A stretch of DNA of 36,168 nt from Gemmatimonadota bacterium (GTDB taxonomy: Bacteria; Gemmatimonadota; Gemmatimonadetes; Longimicrobiales; Gaopeijiaceae): the NCBI GenBank assembly GCA_022560615.1, contig JADFSR010000036.1, positions 1-36,168 on the forward strand, given 5' to 3'. The notes under the pieces are model-generated. The model did not search any database. It saw only the letters and a list, made by a program, of their open reading frames with translations, and was not told the DNA's origin. Shown here one piece after another: positions 23,820 through 32,836 of this stretch. Position 1 is the first letter of the stretch; every line of letters begins with the position of its first letter. Made by a program: the position numbers and the translations under genes.

Positions 23820-26441
23820 TCAGCGACCCTCGTAGAACGCCTCGAGCCGTCGGCGGACGTCACTCCACGGGCCCTTGACGAACGGGGCATCCGGAAGCGA
23901 ATCCCGCAGATAGCGTCCATATCGCTTCACCACGATACGATCGTCCAGGAGGAGCACCGCTCCACGGTCTGCTCGCGATCGGATGAGCCGCCCGAAGCCC
24001 TGCTTCAACCGCAGCGCGGCGTGGGGAAGCATGTACTGTTGGAAAGGATCCCCACCAGCGCGCTCCACCGCTTCCATGCGAGCCGCCGTGATCGGCTCGG
24101 TCGGCACGCGAAACGGCAATTTCTGGATGATCAGGCCGCGTAGGGGGTCCCCCGGCACGTCGACACCCTCCCAGAACGACGTCGTGCCCAACAGGATGCC
24201 GCGTCCGTGCTCCGCGAAGCGACGCAAGAGCCGGTGTCGATCGTCCTCCCCTTGAACGAAGAGCGGCCAACGCTCCGCGGAGCCGTGCTCGCGGAGCAGC
24301 TCCGCGACCTGGCGCAACGCGGCGTGCGACGTGAAGAGCACGAAGAGCCCGCCGTCGCTCATCTCTGCGAGCTCGAGAGTCACGTCCGCAGTCGCCACCT
24401 GAAACGCCTTGGCGCCGCCCTCCGCACCCGGCAAGTCTGTGGGCACACAAAGCACCGTCTGAGACTTGAAATCAAACGGCGACACCAGGATACGCTCTAC
24501 TACCTCAGGTGGATTATCAGTACCGTCGAGGTGCTGGGCGTCGAGCCCGAGGCGCGCTCGGAGGAAATCGAAGCTCTTGCGCGTCGAGAGCGTCGCAGAG
24601 GTCAGGATCGTCGTCTCGGCCTTCGTGAAGAGTGCGTCCAGAAGGAGCCCTCCGAGATCGATGGGAGCCGCTGCCATCACGACGTTCGCGCGCTTCCCAC
24701 GTCCACGGGCTTCCAACCAGCGCACGTACGTGTCTGCCTCCTCCCCCGGAGCGAGCACGAGGCGCAGTCCGTGCATCGACGCCGCAAGACGTCGCTCCAC
24801 GGAACGCAGGTCCAGCACACGACCCTCCAGCGCATCCGAAATCTCTTCATCGAGCTCGATGCGGGCCCGCAGCTCGGCGACCTCCCGTTCGAGCGCGCCC
24901 ATCGAGGCCAGCGTCCCTGCCAGTCTCTCCCGAACGTCGTCGCGCTCCGCAGGCTCCCCGATCCCCGAGGGTCCGAGGCGGACACTGCCTCCGCCGGGAG
25001 GGATGAACGACTCGATCGTTTCGACGAAGCCCTCGACCTCGGCGCGTGCGCGAGACATCGCGGGGCGAACGCGGTTCTCCAACCTCTCGCGCAGCTCCTG
25101 GCTATTCGAAGATCCAGACAGGGCCCCGTGAAGCGCCGTGAGAATACCTTTGCCCCGCCGGTCGAGCCTCGAGAACATGCGGTAGAGGCTGCGGCGCGTG
25201 ACCTCGACACCCAGATGAGACGTAGCGGCGTCTTCGATGTTGTGTGCCTCGTCCAATATGACCCTGTTGTACGCGGGAAGGACCGCGGATTGCGTGAAGT
25301 TCAGCGTGGCGTTCCGCACCGCGAGGTCGGTGAACAGGAGGTGATGGTTCACGACCAACAGCTCGGCGGACGCGGCCCGGCGGCGTGATCGCTGATAGAA
25401 GCACTGCTGGAAGTGCGGACACCGGCTGCGCAGACAGATATCCGGATCGCTTCGGACCTCCTCCCAGGTCTCGGGCTCCGGCGTGAACGGGAGGTCCGAG
25501 AGTGACCCGTCGTCCGTGGTGCTGATCCATTCGAGAAGCGCTCTCATCTCGTCGGAGCGATCGTCGTCGAAGAGCGAGGTCTGCGCTTCAGCGGCGAGCA
25601 ACGCGCGGCGGATCGACACGTAGTTGCCCCGACCCTTCACCAATGCCCACCGCACCTCGCCTATCAGAGACTGCACCAGCGGCAGATCCTTACCGGCGAG
25701 CTGTTCCTGGAGATTGATCGTATTGGTCGAAATCACCGTCCGCTCTCCGTTCTCCTGCGCCCAGCGAGCGGCCGGCAGCAGGTACGCCAGAGACTTCCCG
25801 GTGCCGGTTCCCGCCTCGACGATCGCTACACCTCCCTCGTTGAAGCGGTCGACGACGGTTCGCAGCATGTCGCGCTGCCCCGGGCGGTCTTCGTAGCCGT
25901 CGAAACGCTCGGCGAGAGCGCCGTCTGGCGCGAGCAGTGCGTCCAGCTCCTCGATTTTCAGCGGCACCCGGACTCGGGGCTGCGGCGGTTCGACAACCAC
26001 GTACAGCTGCTCAGCCCCGTTGTCGATGATCGCGGTGCCCAGGCCTTCTTCGTACAGCTGCGCCGCGACCCGCATGTCCGCATCCGAGGGCTCGAGCACG
26101 CCTGAAGGGTGATTGTGCAGCATCACCCCGCCCTCGTCGGCATCCCGGGCAGCCACGAGCACTGCGGCGAAGTTGCCGCGGGCGACGGCCCGGGGCTCGC
26201 GCACGACACGATCCTCATCCACGCGCGCGAGAAAGCACACTTCCCGTCCGCCGGCACGCTCGATCTCCGCCTTCAGGCGCGCCGAGCTCTCCCCTGACAG
26301 CGTGAGCGGCGTGGGCGGAGTCGCGGCCGGCCTGGGCGGTGCCGCCTCCGGTTCCAGCCCGTCCACGCCGTCCAGGCCGTCCAAGCCGACCAGAGCCTCC
26401 TTTGGGATCCGCATCGGGAAGCCTTCGGGCACGTCCGTCAT
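23820..26441 (-). CDS. DinG-family helicase fused to an N-terminal JAMM (RadC-like) domain
   Basis: The 873-residue product has two parts. Residues about 45-155 are a JAMM/MPN domain of RadC type: LHNHPSGVLEPSDADMRVA contains H109, H111, S119 and D122 of the HxHP...SxxD metal motif, with Glu67 a candidate for the acidic residue. Residues about 175-870 are an XPD/DinG superfamily 2 helicase: Walker A GTGTGKS (211-217), ILDEAHN (DEAH), and QGFGRLIRSRADRG (motif VI). The iron-sulfur region keeps CLRSRCPHFQQC, but the first cluster cysteine, after KGRGNY, is Ser. DinG unwinds R-loops and damaged DNA. It follows the 'AsnB-like' gene by four bases. Confidence 0.9.
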   Translation of the reverse strand: MTDVPEGFPMRIPKEALVGLDGLDGVDGLEPEAAPPRPAATPPTPLTLSGESSARLKAEIERAGGREVCFLARVDEDRVVREPRAVARGNFAAVLVAARDADEGGVMLHNHPSGVLEPSDADMRVAAQLYEEGLGTAIIDNGAEQLYVVVEPPQPRVRVPLKIEELDALLAPDGALAERFDGYEDRPGQRDMLRTVVDRFNEGGVAIVEAGTGTGKSLAYLLPAARWAQENGERTVISTNTINLQEQLAGKDLPLVQSLIGEVRWALVKGRGNYVSIRRALLAAEAQTSLFDDDRSDEMRALLEWISTTDDGSLSDLPFTPEPETWEEVRSDPDICLRSRCPHFQQCFYQRSRRRAASAELLVVNHHLLFTDLAVRNATLNFTQSAVLPAYNRVILDEAHNIEDAATSHLGVEVTRRSLYRMFSRLDRRGKGILTALHGALSGSSNSQELRERLENRVRPAMSRARAEVEGFVETIESFIPPGGGSVRLGPSGIGEPAERDDVRERLAGTLASMGALEREVAELRARIELDEEISDALEGRVLDLRSVERRLAASMHGLRLVLAPGEEADTYVRWLEARGRGKRANVVMAAAPIDLGGLLLDALFTKAETTILTSATLSTRKSFDFLRARLGLDAQHLDGTDNPPEVVERILVSPFDFKSQTVLCVPTDLPGAEGGAKAFQVATADVTLELAEMSDGGLFVLFTSHAALRQVAELLREHGSAERWPLFVQGEDDRHRLLRRFAEHGRGILLGTTSFWEGVDVPGDPLRGLIIQKLPFRVPTEPITAARMEAVERAGGDPFQQYMLPHAALRLKQGFGRLIRSRADRGAVLLLDDRIVVKRYGRYLRDSLPDAPFVKGPWSDVRRRLEAFYEGR

Positions 26442-26445
26442 TGCA

Positions 26446-27699
26446 CTACGTCTTGAGCTTCTTCTTCCTTGCAGCCGGGAAGAGAACGTTGTTCAGAATC
26501 AGACGGTAACCGGCGGAGTTCGGATGCAGCGCGAGGTCGGTCGGGGGATCGCCGATCTGATGCTCTGGGTCCTCAGGGTCGTGGCCGCCGAAGTAGGTCC
26601 ACGTCCCCTCCCCAAGGTTGCCGTGAACGTACTTGGCCCAGCCCTGTTCCCGCGCGAGCACGATCGTGCCGGACTGAAGGCGATCCTCCCGGAACGAGGT
26701 GGTCAGACCGTAGAAGTCCGGCAACACGGATTGGTGGTTCTGCGTCAGCATCGAGGGCACCGGATCGAACTTGGCGGAGAAGTCGAAGAGCGTGTACACG
26801 CCGAGCTCCTTCCTCCACTGCGTATTCACCTGATGCGCGTCGATGTCCGAGAAGGAATTCACCGCGGGCGCTAGCTGGACCTGCGCGTGCTCGAACGCGA
26901 GGGTACGGCTCCAATCCATCTTGGCGGAAGCGTCCGGGTCCGGCGGCGTCCCGTCCGAGTACGCGGCAGCGATGTCGACCGAGCCCGCCGCGAGCGCGAG
27001 CTCGAGTGTCTCGGTGGCCGAGCACATCGCGAACAGGAAGCCGCCGTTTTCGACAAAGTCCCGGATCTTCATCGCGATGCTCTTCTTGAGCTCCGGCACG
27101 TTCGCGAATCCACCCGCCCTCGCGACCTCCTGGTTGCGCGCGACCTCCTCCTGCAACCAAGGCGCACCGGCGTAGGTGAGGTAGAACTTCGAGTACTGCC
27201 CGGTGAAATCCTCGTGGTGGAGGTGGATCCACTCGTAGTCGTTCAGGTCCTGCTCGAGCACCTCGTAGTCCCAGATGGTCTCGTACGCGATGCCCGCGTA
27301 GTCGAGAACCAGCGTGACGGCGTCGTCCCACGGGGTCGTATTCGGCGGCGTATAGATCGCGACCTTTGGCGCGCGCTCGAGCGGCACTGCCTCCATATTG
27401 GAGTCCGCGATCGTCGCGCGAATGCGCGCCTCGCCCGGCGCGTCCACAGTGACGATCGTGACTCCGCGCAGCGCCGCCTCCCGGCGGACGTCCGCGCGGT
27501 CCGGAAGTAAGAAGGAGCCACCCCGGTAGTTGAGCAGCCACTCCGCCTTCTCTTCCTGCTCCAACGTCCAGTACGTCAGCCCGTACGCACGCAGATGGTT
27601 CCGCTGATCGCTATCCATGGGCACGAGAATCCACTGGGCTGACGCGGGTCGAGCCGCGAACAGCCCCATGACCACGAGGGCCGCCGTGAAGTAGTTCAC
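26446..27699 (-). CDS. Secreted protein of the so-called 'asparagine synthetase B' family
   Basis: The 417-residue product has a signal peptide (ending ARPASAQ) and the sequence IHLHHEDFTGQYSKFY, RGGSFLLP, PWDDAVTLVLDYAGI, FLFAMCSATETLELAL. I know this family from Bacteroidota, where it is labelled asparagine synthetase B although no AsnB catalytic motif is present. The FVENGGFLFAMCSATE segment is typical of a ThuA/GATase-like flavodoxin fold, similar to DUF4159, whose gene lies in the same cluster. GTG at 27699 overlaps the TPR gene stop (GTGA). The function is unknown. Confidence 0.75.
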   Translation of the reverse strand: MNYFTAALVVMGLFAARPASAQWILVPMDSDQRNHLRAYGLTYWTLEQEEKAEWLLNYRGGSFLLPDRADVRREAALRGVTIVTVDAPGEARIRATIADSNMEAVPLERAPKVAIYTPPNTTPWDDAVTLVLDYAGIAYETIWDYEVLEQDLNDYEWIHLHHEDFTGQYSKFYLTYAGAPWLQEEVARNQEVARAGGFANVPELKKSIAMKIRDFVENGGFLFAMCSATETLELALAAGSVDIAAAYSDGTPPDPDASAKMDWSRTLAFEHAQVQLAPAVNSFSDIDAHQVNTQWRKELGVYTLFDFSAKFDPVPSMLTQNHQSVLPDFYGLTTSFREDRLQSGTIVLAREQGWAKYVHGNLGEGTWTYFGGHDPEDPEHQIGDPPTDLALHPNSAGYRLILNNVLFPAARKKKLKT

Positions 27700-29459
27700 C
27701 GCCCCCGCCCCCGCAGCCTTTCGAGTTCGAGCCGCGCATCCGGCACTACCGCCGCGTTCGGACGCGAGGTGATGAGCTCTTCGAGCAGCGCGATCGCGGC
27801 GGCGACCCCGTCGCTCGAGGCGGCCCGGTACCGTGCGAGCGCCAGCGCCGCTTCGCCAACCTCGGGCGCGTCGGGGAACTCGGTGACAATACGTTCCCGG
27901 ATCAGCGCAGCCTCGCTCGGCAGCTCCCCGCGCTGCGCGATGCGCGCGGCCTCGGCGAGCACGGGCGGACGTTCGTCCCGGCGGAGCGATTCCGCACCCT
28001 CCGTCAACGCACGCACGGCCTCCGAGGCCTGTCCCCTATGCGCTCGCACCATGGCCGTGGCGAGCAGCTCCGCCCCCTCCGCTGACAGGCGCCCCATCAG
28101 GCCCACCATCTGGATGACCTCCGTCGCGTCCGACGGCTCCAGGCCGGGCAGCGCGAGCAAGAGCGCCCGCCGGCCTTCCTCGACTTCACGCGCATCGAAC
28201 AGGAGATACGCTCGCTCGACGCCACTGCGTGGTCCTTCGATTCCTTCGAGCACAGCGGCGGCCCCGGCGGCGTCTCCCCGCGCCAGCAGCCCCGCCGCCA
28301 CCGTGGCCGCCAGATCGTCGAGCTCCGGCGCGTTCGGGAACTCATCCCGGAAGTTTTTCAATAGCTCCCCGAGTCGTCCCGGGTCCGCATCGGCGCCCTC
28401 GAAACGGATGACCTGCGCCATCGCCCGACGTCGGTCGACGGAGCCGGCGGAGAACGAAGCCGCGATGCGGCGTTGAGCGTCGAGCGCGGCTGCCGTATCC
28501 GCGGCGGCCAGCGCCACGTCCAGAATCCGCTGGTCGAACCGGCGACGCTCGGCCGGGGTGGACGCATCGCCGCCCAACTCGGACAAGGCCCAGGACGCCG
28601 TCCGCACGAGGTCCTTCTCTCGCGCCCGGCGCGCCACGTCGTTGAGGAACATCTCGCGAGCGCGTCCGTCCAGGTCGCTCGCCACCTCCTTGGACAGATC
28701 GAGCGCCTCTGGCCCCAGACCCAGGTCGAGCGCAATGCGCGCGCCCGCGCGCCGCCTCGGCAGCAGATCGGACCGCGCGAGTGAGCGGACGAGCCGGCGG
28801 CCGGCGGCGTCCCTACCCTGTGTCAGTCCCTGCACTCGGCGCGCGATCGCCGTGGTCTGCGCGCCATCGTCGCCGATCGCGCGAAGCCACTCGTCGACGG
28901 CTCCGTCACGGTCCCCCCTCGCTGCGAGCATGTCCCCGATCTCCATCGCGAGCGCGTCAACGCCCGCGGCCTCGCGGCCCCTGCGAAGAATCTGCAGCGC
29001 CCGATCGGACCCGAAGGCGCGCTCAAACACACGCGCAACCTCTCGGTACGGAACCTCGCTTGCGGGGTCCAGCTCGAACCAGCGCTCGGCTTCGTGCTCG
29101 AGAGCGTCGAGCGAATCGAACTCCATGAGGACGCGCAGCTTCAGGTACCGTACTCCCGACGAAGCCGCGTCGCGCGCGAGAAACGCGTCCACCAAAGGGA
29201 GGATCTCGGCGGTCTCCCCCTTTGCGCGCAGCACGCGCTCCAGCGCGAAGAGCCCACCCGACGATGCAGGGTCGGCCTCGAGCAATCGGCGCAGGACGGA
29301 TTCCGCGCCGTCGAAGTCGCCTTGCGACTCCCGCGCCGCTGCGTCGCGCAGCAGGCGACCCTCATCCGTCCCTCGGCGGATCTGGCCGGTCGCAGGGGTC
29401 GAGCAGAGAAGGAGCAGCGTCAGCACCCCAAAGCCGGACCAGAGTTGGCGCGGGGACAT
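27696..29459 (-). CDS. Secreted TPR-rich protein
   Basis: The product of about 587 residues starts with a signal peptide (LLLLCSTPATGQ). The rest is Ala/Leu/Arg-rich helical repeats (LLRDAAARESQGDFDGAESV and many later), typical of tetratricopeptide-type superhelices that act as protein scaffolds, here outside the cytoplasm. ATG at 29459 overlaps the DUF4175 gene stop (TGATG); GTG one codon upstream is possible. The downstream gene overlaps its stop. Confidence 0.75.
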   Translation of the reverse strand: MSPRQLWSGFGVLTLLLLCSTPATGQIRRGTDEGRLLRDAAARESQGDFDGAESVLRRLLEADPASSGGLFALERVLRAKGETAEILPLVDAFLARDAASSGVRYLKLRVLMEFDSLDALEHEAERWFELDPASEVPYREVARVFERAFGSDRALQILRRGREAAGVDALAMEIGDMLAARGDRDGAVDEWLRAIGDDGAQTTAIARRVQGLTQGRDAAGRRLVRSLARSDLLPRRRAGARIALDLGLGPEALDLSKEVASDLDGRAREMFLNDVARRAREKDLVRTASWALSELGGDASTPAERRRFDQRILDVALAAADTAAALDAQRRIAASFSAGSVDRRRAMAQVIRFEGADADPGRLGELLKNFRDEFPNAPELDDLAATVAAGLLARGDAAGAAAVLEGIEGPRSGVERAYLLFDAREVEEGRRALLLALPGLEPSDATEVIQMVGLMGRLSAEGAELLATAMVRAHRGQASEAVRALTEGAESLRRDERPPVLAEAARIAQRGELPSEAALIRERIVTEFPDAPEVGEAALALARYRAASSDGVAAAIALLEELITSRPNAAVVPDARLELERLRGRGR

Positions 29460-32400
29460 CACGACCCCCCTCCGCCACTGCCACCACTGCCGCCGCCGCC
29501 ACCGCCGCCGCCGCGGTTGAGGCGCTCGAAATACTGAATGACGAGCTGCCGCACGGCAGGGCTCAGGCGTTGGAGCTGCGCCGCGTCCGGCAGTCGGAAG
29601 CGAAGGAGCCCGAGTTGGTCCGCGGTGAGCGCCATGATCTCGCCGCGCTCGAACACACCCGGAGTCTCGGATTCCCGCTCGTCCGAGGACTCCTCGCGCT
29701 CGAGCGAACGTCCGGCGTCGAGAAGCCTGTGGAAGAGTCGCTCCTGCCGCTGCGTGATCTCCGGCGTGAGGCGCCCCTGAGCGAGCTGCTCGGCGAGCGC
29801 TTCTGCTTCGGCCGCAAGTTGCTCGAGGTCTCCGAGCGACTCCTCCGCTCCCGGCTGGTCCGCCAGTTCACCGAGATCGGACGCGACTGACTGCTGCCCT
29901 TGCGACAGCTCTTGCAACTGCCGCTGCATCGCCTGCTCACCGAGCTCGAGCGGCATCAGCTGCCCGGTCTGGTTCATCAAGTCGCCCTGCTCCTGCGCGA
30001 GCTGCTCGAGCTGCTGGGCCACGTCACCGGACTGACCCTCGCCTTGCTGTCCCATCCCCTCCGCGCCGGCGATCGCCGCGAGCGCGAGCTGGTTGAGGTC
30101 TCCTATCGCCTGGCCCGCCTGCGCATGCGGCGAGGGTGTGGAGCCCCGGCGGGTCTGCATCGCCTCGATGGTCTTCTCGATCGACTCCATCGCGCGTCCC
30201 AAGTGCGCGGACAGTTGCTGGTCCGCTTCCATCGCCCCCTGTCCCGCGGCTTGCAGGTTCTCGGCCATGTTCTCGACCCCCTGCAGGAGCGATGCCTCGT
30301 CGCTACGCATTCCGGCCACTTGCTCTTGGCTCGAGCCACGCATGCGCTCGCGCAACTCCGTTTGCCTGCGCGCCAGCGAGAGCGCGTCGTCCGCGGCCTG
30401 GTGAAGCGCAGCTTGGGCAGCCTCCGCCCTCTCCTCCGCCATCTGCTCCTGCGCTTGCTGCAGCTCCTCCGCGACCTGCTGGAGACGCTCCGCGGCCCGG
30501 TCCGCCTGCTCCGCGGCCTGTTGATTCTGGCCCTGGTTCGCTTGCTGCTCCGCTTGCTGCATCTGTTGCTGCGCCTGCCGCATCGACTCCCGCGCTTGCT
30601 GCACGCCCGCAGCCGCTTCCTGTTCGTCGATCTGGCCCAGTCGCTGCTCGAGCCTCTCCATCTGAGATTGCAACTGCTCGGCGCGGGCTTCGAGGTCCTG
30701 TTGCTGTTCGCCGCGCAGCTCGGGATTGTCCTCCTCCTTCATGGCGTCGGCCAACGCCTCCTCCTGACGCGCGAGCTCCTCGGCCTCGCCGGTCGTCGCC
30801 CGGAAGTCTTGCTCCACCGCGGCCCGACGGAATCGTTCCAGAGCCTGCTCGAGTCGCTTGCGAAACTCTTCCTGCTGCTCCGCGAGATCACTCAGAGACT
30901 CGTTGGCCCGGCGCAGATCGTCCTGATCCAACGCCTCGGCCATCTCTTCCATACGCTGCCGCAAGTCGCTCCCGGTCAGTTCCCTGAGTAGCTCCTGAAG
31001 CTCCTCGAGCTCTCTCGAGAGCTCTGGGTCCGCCTGGCCGGCTTCCTCCAGCATGCGCTCGAGCTCTCCGAGTTCGGCGTGCAATGAGTCGGCCGCAGTG
31101 CTCATCTCCTCCTGATTGTCGAGCGCCGCTTGCAGCTCCTCCCGCTGCTCGAACTCCGGCTGACCTTCTTCCCGAGCTCCGCGAGCATCCCCTTGCGCAG
31201 CGTTCTGGAGCGCCTGATCCCGATTCTCTTCGGCGCGACGGGCCGCTTCCTCCGCCAGCTCTGCGAGCCGGTCGGCGACGTCCTCGAGCTGCTGCTCCGC
31301 GGCACGCTGCATCTCGGCGGCGGCCGGCATGCGTAGCACGTACTCGCGCGTCGACGCGACCTGGCCTGAAGGAGCGTTGTCGATGGCCCTGGCGTAGTAC
31401 CGCACGGTGTCGCCGGGCAGAAGGCCCCAGCTCCTAAGGTCGAGAAGCGGACGCGCGAGCGCCGCGCGCGTGCCACCGAGGTCCCATCCCTGCGTGATGG
31501 GCTCGTGGCGCTCACCGAACGCCGTGACTCTGTACGCGACGAGCTCCAGGCGCCGGAGGCCGTAGTCGTCGCTCGCTTCGAGAATGAGCGGCTGGCGAAG
31601 GTTCAACGGCAGGATCGTGTCACGTCCCGGCAGGGGGATCGCCACGTGCGGCGCCGAGTCCGGCACGAGCGTGATCACGAGCGGTCCCGGCTGAATCTCG
31701 GCTGGATCTCCGTCGTCGTCTTGGAAGGACCAGGAGAACACGCCGTCCGCCCGTGGCGTCCACGCCCCCTGAAAGCCGCTTCCCTCAACCTGGAGTTCGA
31801 TCGCGGTCGCGCCAGTCGAATCCTCCAGGGCGGCACGCGAAAGTGGGCGGCTCGCGCGTCCCTCCAGTGTGAGGCGGGACCCGCTGGGCAGACGCAACGG
31901 AGGCGGGTCCCCGCGATACTCATCCGGCAGCAGGCCGGTGTGCGCAGGGTACACCACGCCGAGAACGAAATCGCTCACGAAGAGTGGATCGATCGGGATG
32001 ATCGAGTAAGTCTCGGTCTCGCTGCCGTCGTCGCCTTGGACTCGATACTCGATCGGCGAAGCGATGGCTTCGAAGACATGCGACGCCCGTTCCCGCGTGA
32101 GCTCGAGCCTCTCGTTTCGCGCGATGTCGCCCGCGGCCTGCCACGAAAGGAGCACCGTAGCCCGCCCGGGGGCCTCGATGGTGAGCCCGACGTCCGAGCC
32201 GCGCAGAACCTCCACGTTCCCGGGCGTGACCACAATCGAAGGCAGCACAGGGTCCTTCATGAGTCCGAACGGGGACGAGAGGCCCGCCCACGCCCCGAGC
32301 GATCGACTGGGCGTGGCCACTGCCAGGCCAATCGCGAGGACCGCCAGAACCGAGAAAGCGGTAAGGCCCCGCCGTGTCCAGACATCGAGCGCCGCGCCCA

Positions 32401-32836
32401 ACTCACCGGATAGGACCGCCGGCGAGCGCTCGCTGAGCCCCGCAAGAGCGCGTTCAGCCGCCCGCGCCGCAAGTGAGCGAGAAACGCCCGGCGGGATCTC
32501 ACGCGACAGCTCCAAGGTGCCCCGTACGATGCCCGGACGTAGACCCGCGGCGCGCTCCATCGTCTCCGAGAGCGGAGCTTCCGCCAACCAGCGCATCGCC
32601 CCGGCCCGATGCGCCCACAATGCGGCGAGCGCGAGCGCCAGGACCACCGCGTCCAACTGCGCGGGTACGTCGCTTCCCTGGCGCCAGCCCTCAGGACCCG
32701 CAAGCATCCATGCCGCGATCAGCGCGAGTCCGACGACCGCGGCCAACCAGACGCTCAACGCGATCGCGCCTCGCTTCCTCAGGTGACCACGAACCCCCTG
32801 GACCTCGCCGTGCAGCCGCTTGCCTGCCGGACTCAC
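29459..32836 (-). CDS. DUF4175-type membrane protein with long Gln-rich coiled coil
   Basis: The 1125-residue product has two or three N-terminal transmembrane helices (about residues 25-47, 60-80 and 157-178), a beta-rich periplasmic region, and then about 500 residues of Gln/Glu/Ala/Leu-rich coiled coil (EEMSTAADSLHAELGELERM and on). It ends in an extreme glycine run followed by GGSGGSGGGGS. The layout matches DUF4175 proteins found beside DUF4159. The GTG start overlaps the DUF4159 stop (GTGA). It is probably a membrane scaffold of an envelope complex. Confidence 0.8.
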   Translation of the reverse strand: MSPAGKRLHGEVQGVRGHLRKRGAIALSVWLAAVVGLALIAAWMLAGPEGWRQGSDVPAQLDAVVLALALAALWAHRAGAMRWLAEAPLSETMERAAGLRPGIVRGTLELSREIPPGVSRSLAARAAERALAGLSERSPAVLSGELGAALDVWTRRGLTAFSVLAVLAIGLAVATPSRSLGAWAGLSSPFGLMKDPVLPSIVVTPGNVEVLRGSDVGLTIEAPGRATVLLSWQAAGDIARNERLELTRERASHVFEAIASPIEYRVQGDDGSETETYSIIPIDPLFVSDFVLGVVYPAHTGLLPDEYRGDPPPLRLPSGSRLTLEGRASRPLSRAALEDSTGATAIELQVEGSGFQGAWTPRADGVFSWSFQDDDGDPAEIQPGPLVITLVPDSAPHVAIPLPGRDTILPLNLRQPLILEASDDYGLRRLELVAYRVTAFGERHEPITQGWDLGGTRAALARPLLDLRSWGLLPGDTVRYYARAIDNAPSGQVASTREYVLRMPAAAEMQRAAEQQLEDVADRLAELAEEAARRAEENRDQALQNAAQGDARGAREEGQPEFEQREELQAALDNQEEMSTAADSLHAELGELERMLEEAGQADPELSRELEELQELLRELTGSDLRQRMEEMAEALDQDDLRRANESLSDLAEQQEEFRKRLEQALERFRRAAVEQDFRATTGEAEELARQEEALADAMKEEDNPELRGEQQQDLEARAEQLQSQMERLEQRLGQIDEQEAAAGVQQARESMRQAQQQMQQAEQQANQGQNQQAAEQADRAAERLQQVAEELQQAQEQMAEERAEAAQAALHQAADDALSLARRQTELRERMRGSSQEQVAGMRSDEASLLQGVENMAENLQAAGQGAMEADQQLSAHLGRAMESIEKTIEAMQTRRGSTPSPHAQAGQAIGDLNQLALAAIAGAEGMGQQGEGQSGDVAQQLEQLAQEQGDLMNQTGQLMPLELGEQAMQRQLQELSQGQQSVASDLGELADQPGAEESLGDLEQLAAEAEALAEQLAQGRLTPEITQRQERLFHRLLDAGRSLEREESSDERESETPGVFERGEIMALTADQLGLLRFRLPDAAQLQRLSPAVRQLVIQYFERLNRGGGGGGGGSGGSGGGGS

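Follow-up and report, generated by a model that had tools for sequence, protein, structure and literature searches.

A protein encoded on the minus strand of the window, the stretch of 36,168 nucleotides analyzed here, is almost certainly a RadC-like DinG, a helicase of the DinG/YoaA type that carries an N-terminal RadC-like JAMM domain. The gene lies on contig C36 of a Gemmatimonadota genome of 4.5 Mb and is a further member of a published kind. New here are the conservation of the fusion across the phylum, the joint loss of the metal-site residues in a few members, and an SCCC variant of the FeS-cluster site. Comparison of homologous genes shows, as far as sequences can speak, that the JAMM and helicase halves have long been conserved within one chain. 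The reading that we favor as a whole, in which the helicase of this RadC-like DinG loads onto DNA and the JAMM domain, as a peptidase working in cis, clips protein bound or crosslinked to DNA, is given a probability of roughly 0.4. The features of the gene are collected in Table 1.

Table 1. Features of the RadC-like DinG gene, with positions in the window
Feature	Position	Strand	Basis
RadC-like DinG, entire gene, 873 aa, ATG start	23820..26441	-	ORF, Pfam, NCBIfam
RadC-like JAMM domain, N-terminal, residues 45-155	25977..26309	-	Pfam PF04002, AlphaFold2, structure search, profile A1
E67, presumed JAMM catalytic glutamate	26241..26243	-	E kept in 152/155 distinct homologous domains
HNHPSG, residues 109-114; H109 and H111 presumed zinc ligands	26100..26117	-	alignment, conservation
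SxxD, residues 119-122; includes S119 and D122, the latter a presumed zinc ligand	26076..26087	-	alignment, conservation
YoaA/DinG-type helicase body, residues ~175-871	23829..25919	-	Pfam, NCBIfam
Walker A GTGTGKS, residues 211-217	25791..25811	-	alignment
S276, in place of first E. coli DinG FeS-cluster cysteine	25614..25616	-	alignment to 6fwr
C336, C341, C347, remaining three FeS-cluster cysteines	25401..25436	-	in 76/76 aligned rows
DEAH box, residues 397-400	25242..25253	-	alignment

Domain architecture, relatives, and genomic setting

The N-terminal region of the protein matches the RadC family of Pfam (PF04002) at residues 67–131, with a score of 24.9 bits (cut-off 22.1, E 2.1e-5). The JAMM/MPN+ motif, E-x(n)-HxHP-x(n)-S-x2-D, is complete and comprises E67, which sits in the segment GREVCF, H109, H111, P112, S119, and D122. 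An earlier note on this DNA had listed H109, H111, S119, and D122 as intact, and its numbering is correct, with HNHPSG beginning at H109 and the rest in place; the presumed JAMM glutamate, E67, was absent from that list. The full-length RadC model of NCBIfam, NF000642, reaches 23.3 bits over residues 106–132 only, against a cut-off of 180 bits. The fused domain thus falls within the RadC clade of JAB domains but outside the RadC family of full-length proteins.

The AlphaFold2 model of residues 29–178, built with seven sequences, has a mean pLDDT of 86.6 and is composed of elements in the order helix-strand-strand-helix-strand-helix-strand-strand-helix. The predicted fold is that of a JAMM domain with five strands, as expected for the RadC-like N terminus of a RadC-like DinG, and it agrees with the fold that the earlier note had proposed for residues 45–155. 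Structural comparisons point the same way. The best solved Foldseek matches are chains of RadC (2qlc, E 7.7e-6), followed by the bacterial protein BubCD, CSN5, the Pyrococcus JAMM1 protein PfJAMM1, and Rpn11. VIA-align returns Z scores of 8.4–10.6 across 94–115 residues, with JAB/MPN-fold chains in the 50 matches listed; the highest Z score, 10.6, corresponds to an rmsd of 2.7 over 113 residues, and since scores that differ by 1 or less are treated as tied, no order among JAMM families is claimed. The model of the full-length protein has a pLDDT of 63.4, too poor to show how the JAMM and helicase domains face each other.

Pfam matches to DEAD, DEAD_2, and Helicase_C_2 cover the rest of the protein, and the top NCBIfam family is the YoaA helicase, at 545.9 bits, under the equivalog cut-off of 680. 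The motifs of this DinG/YoaA-type core are intact. As an XPD/Rad3-family DNA helicase of the YoaA/DinG type, the protein would work in the 5'-3' direction. The putative FeS cluster would be held by three cysteines and a serine in the first position, within the four, or at least three, cysteines that mark a RadC-like DinG. Of 76 aligned rows, 47 have Ser at the first position and 29 have Cys. By family, Ser is found in f1–f3 (rows L009–L043) and Cys in f4–f6 (rows L044–L074), two sets that constitute natural SCCC and CCCC lineages in which the other three cysteines are invariant. Three-Cys variants were counted as FeS domains in the review of Cheng (2025), in which variants that differ at one residue, CCHC and CCCS among them, are described as perhaps retaining the capacity to bind a cluster (PMC11981726).

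Fusions of RadC to DinG/Rad3-like helicases were noted by Iyer et al. (2017), who proposed a nuclease from positional equivalence, and are cited there as already noted by Iyer et al. in 2011 (PMC5512222). In the Cheng review, "RadC-like DinG" is one of ten DinG subgroups, for which the E/H/H/D site was identified and zinc was modelled there; according to the review no research on these proteins existed, and its main text does not mention Gemmatimonadota (PMC11981726). A host without a HolC (chi) homologue is a further mark of the subgroup. A full-text literature search found the name "RadC-like DinG" in no other paper. The fusion itself and both functional guesses, nuclease and peptidase, are already in the literature, and the nuclease argument of the earlier note is the positional-equivalence argument of Iyer et al.

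The example of the subgroup from Desulfuromonas soudanensis (PMC11981726) has the same RadC-like N terminus followed by an FeS-type DinG/YoaA helicase. The E, the two H, and the D of the site (E67, H109, H111, and D122 here) are shared, and JAMM metalloproteases are fold relatives in both; the main difference is that the lineage described here has SCCC, with S276, rather than CCCC. Stand-alone RadC (PF04002; Chlorobium RadC, 2qlc), the best Foldseek match, shares the HNHPSG...PSxxD signature, whereas the domain described here is fused to a helicase and has, as judged by eye, a nearly invariant Asn (N141) in place of the canonical LDH motif. ExoDinG, the Firmicute DinG composed of a DnaQ-type exonuclease and a helicase, likewise has an N-terminal enzymatic domain on the same kind of helicase. 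Here, however, the N-terminal fold is JAMM rather than DnaQ, and a Pfam scan of the protein found no DnaQ-type exonuclease domain. E. coli YoaA, which represents the closest helicase family by NCBIfam score, differs in lacking a JAMM domain at its N terminus and has HolC (chi) as its partner.

A second RadC, an ordinary stand-alone protein of 240 aa (L001), is encoded on a different contig of the host genome, so the fused domain is not a displaced housekeeping gene. In a profile comparison of the fused domains with this stand-alone RadC, the HNHPSG–PSxxD region is aligned with 96.2% probability over 35 columns.

The ATG of the RadC-like DinG gene is located 4 nt past the stop codon of the preceding gene on the minus strand. 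The latter gene (26446–27699, minus strand), directly upstream, encodes a strongly conserved protein (58–93% identity) without a Pfam match. At loci in other genomes, the scan covered homologues of the genes in the window. The upstream gene has a homologue near the helicase in 37 of the 46 loci examined, and many of these loci also keep the FAA-hydrolase and aminotransferase genes, contig ends allowing. Because gene order is so widely kept, the RadC-like DinG gene looks like an ordinary chromosomal gene that is vertically inherited. A further gene (29459–32836, minus strand) encodes a protein of 1125 aa that contains a long coiled-coil-like region rich in Gln, Glu, and Ala as well as a Gly-rich tail, and its Pfam match to DUF4175 is weak and below the cut-off. 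Among the eight window genes scanned with Pfam, no ubiquitin-like or E1-like genes and no CRISPR or defence genes were found. A role as a defence system is set aside on the basis of these eight genes and of the best PADLOC matches, which take the helicase part for a type IV DinG, as is expected for any DinG-like helicase.

Distribution, site conservation, and domain loss in Gemmatimonadota

A profile of the JAMM domain (A1), built from 30 fused domains, was run on 200 Gemmatimonadota genomes. By hand count from the result table, 154 genomes have a strong match (E < 1e-10), 37 have a weak match only, of a size as for ordinary RadC, and 9 have none. The reading of the open frame as a JAMM-like domain fused to a DinG helicase, made in the earlier note, is borne out by this spread and by a Pfam RadC score above the cut-off; as a discovery, the fusion had been published before. 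The fused domain is absent from the f10 genomes, which lie outside the class, and from families f7 and f9, in which the helicase search likewise gave little or nothing.

A mobile origin of the domain was considered and rejected on the basis of searches of phage records, plasmids, and viral contigs. When the domain alone was used as the query, no match was found in 50,697 phage records, and the plasmid search gave just three weak, short JAB matches. Plasmid helicase matches, among those listed, begin past the JAMM domain. Viral contigs contain weak RadC-like matches only (best E 3e-8, 26–60% identity).

All fetched copies of the domain amount to 155 distinct sequences, which come from related species and do not count as independent events, and E67, H109, H111, S119, and D122 are all kept in 152 of them. 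The remaining three copies have KHRLE (L020), RLQSE (L075), and SIHSE (L076) at the five places, such that each has lost three or four of the five residues; loss of one or two is seen in 0 of the 155. On the helicase tree, L075 and L076 are sisters and L020 is separate. Retention of HxHP and SxxD in close homologues, on which the earlier note had made its proposal depend, holds for the 152 copies but not for L020, a fairly close homologue with about 64% overall identity. The residues of the metal site appear to be retained or lost together, and joint loss without intermediates is what is expected if the whole site is under selection and decays fast once released.

The broken domains are located at L020:3634–3981, L075:6175–6525, and L076:6193–6540. 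The homologues that contain them sit in small genomes of about 1.8–2.0 Mb (G130, G109, and G120), and site loss may be connected with genome reduction.

Seven of the fetched helicases have no JAMM domain at all; in an eighth, L074, the sequence is truncated where its contig ends. In a maximum-likelihood tree of the helicase part, the seven fall at three places within domain-bearing clades, namely L067, L068, and a clade of five, with L067 and L068 on long branches that make their placement unsure. Given this nesting, the simplest reading of the sequences is that the domain was wholly lost about three times while the helicase was retained intact. A tblastn search of the regions surrounding the domain-less helicases for a stand-alone copy of the domain gave chance matches only, and the single short frame that contains the domain (G048:C85) runs into the edge of its contig. 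The broken-site and domain-less members shown have intact helicase motifs. From the nested losses and these intact motifs, the JAMM domain is therefore old in this group, useful, and dispensable for the helicase.

The branches of L067 and L068 and the stem of L075/L076 are long, at 0.87–1.16 changes per column, as if the helicase too had sped up after loss or breakage of the JAMM domain. The f5 clade of five domain-less members does not show such branches.

Possible activity of the JAMM domain

The intact site in nearly all copies, the joint losses, and the loss of the domain with the helicase intact argue for a hydrolase, joined to the helicase, that is under selection and yet can be dispensed with, as judged from sequence comparison. 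We consider it probable that the domain is an active metal hydrolase. The site would bind zinc and be catalytic, the helicase would load at stalled or damaged sites onto single-stranded DNA, and whatever the motor brings to the JAMM domain would be cut there in cis. The most likely substrate would be a protein bound or crosslinked to DNA, which the domain would clip as a cis-acting peptidase.

If the hydrolase is active, we lean toward a peptidase rather than a nuclease. The peptidase is the first choice because the classical JAMM metalloprotease site is complete and because, among the close fold relatives, those whose activity is known cleave peptide or isopeptide bonds. Next to RadC, the closest solved folds among the matches listed belong to (iso)peptidases or to inactive JAB/MPN relatives, and metalloproteases were also the fold relatives reported by Cheng for another RadC-like DinG member (PMC11981726). 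Fold likeness, of course, does not show chemistry. A possible functional parallel is the animal pair of the FANCJ helicase and the SPRTN protease, whose logic on DNA-bound protein would be comparable. FANCJ, which belongs to the same helicase superfamily, unfolds crosslinked proteins for cutting by the SPRTN metalloprotease, so a Rad3-family motor can prepare a protein for a metalloprotease (PMC12279946). FANCJ and SPRTN are, however, two proteins, and the protease family is unrelated. That RadC-like DinG would be their bacterial counterpart in one polypeptide, clearing or repairing proteins trapped on DNA, with the Rad3-family motor pulling on a protein bound or crosslinked to DNA while the JAMM domain clips it, is a reading that we regard as unlikely.

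The main rival, ranked close behind the peptidase and itself a tentative possibility, takes the JAMM domain for a metal-dependent nuclease, or for an enzyme that processes nucleotides or nucleic acids. The domain would then cleave the strand that the helicase exposes and would replace the DnaQ-type exonuclease of Firmicute DinG. The case for this nuclease, which is also the case against a peptidase, was made by Iyer et al.: RadC-family fusions occupy the position of the nuclease domains in other DinG/Rad3 helicases, RadC is also fused to HhH and ArdC-N, and RadC-family JAB domains were argued to have no groove for the ubiquitin tail (PMC5512222). B. subtilis DinG is described as bearing a DEDD 3'-5' exo(ribo)nuclease domain together with the helicase (PMC12525004). 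On the other side, the structure search gives peptidase-type JAMM domains and no nuclease among the matches listed, although such a list, drawn from one fold, cannot exclude a chemistry. We know of no JAMM/JAB nuclease. The earlier note's suggestion that the helicase works together with a metal-dependent enzyme, either a nuclease or a peptidase, is reasonable but not new (PMC5512222, PMC11981726), and the sequence does not choose between its two forms.

A non-enzymatic role, in which the domain would have become a binding module for regulation or targeting of the helicase, is less likely still. Many MPN domains elsewhere are inactive scaffolds, and the domain is kept with a broken metal site in L020, L075, and L076. 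Retention of all five residues in 152 of 155 copies, with losses that are joint rather than piecemeal, is nevertheless difficult to account for unless the site is under selection. That the fusion is an artefact of assembly or gene calling, or that the RadC-like motif arose by chance, might be suspected from a Pfam score barely above the cut-off and is refuted by the same fusion, in a single open frame, in most of the 200 genomes (154/200) and by the confident JAMM model.

To our knowledge, the function of RadC has been unsettled for decades. The fusion places a RadC-type site beside a helicase of a well-studied family, and the phylum provides natural controls, with intact, broken, and missing JAMM domains on the same helicase, which makes the question of RadC function testable. 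If the peptidase reading is true, a single-chain helicase-metalloprotease would give the first substrate class assigned to a RadC-type JAB domain.
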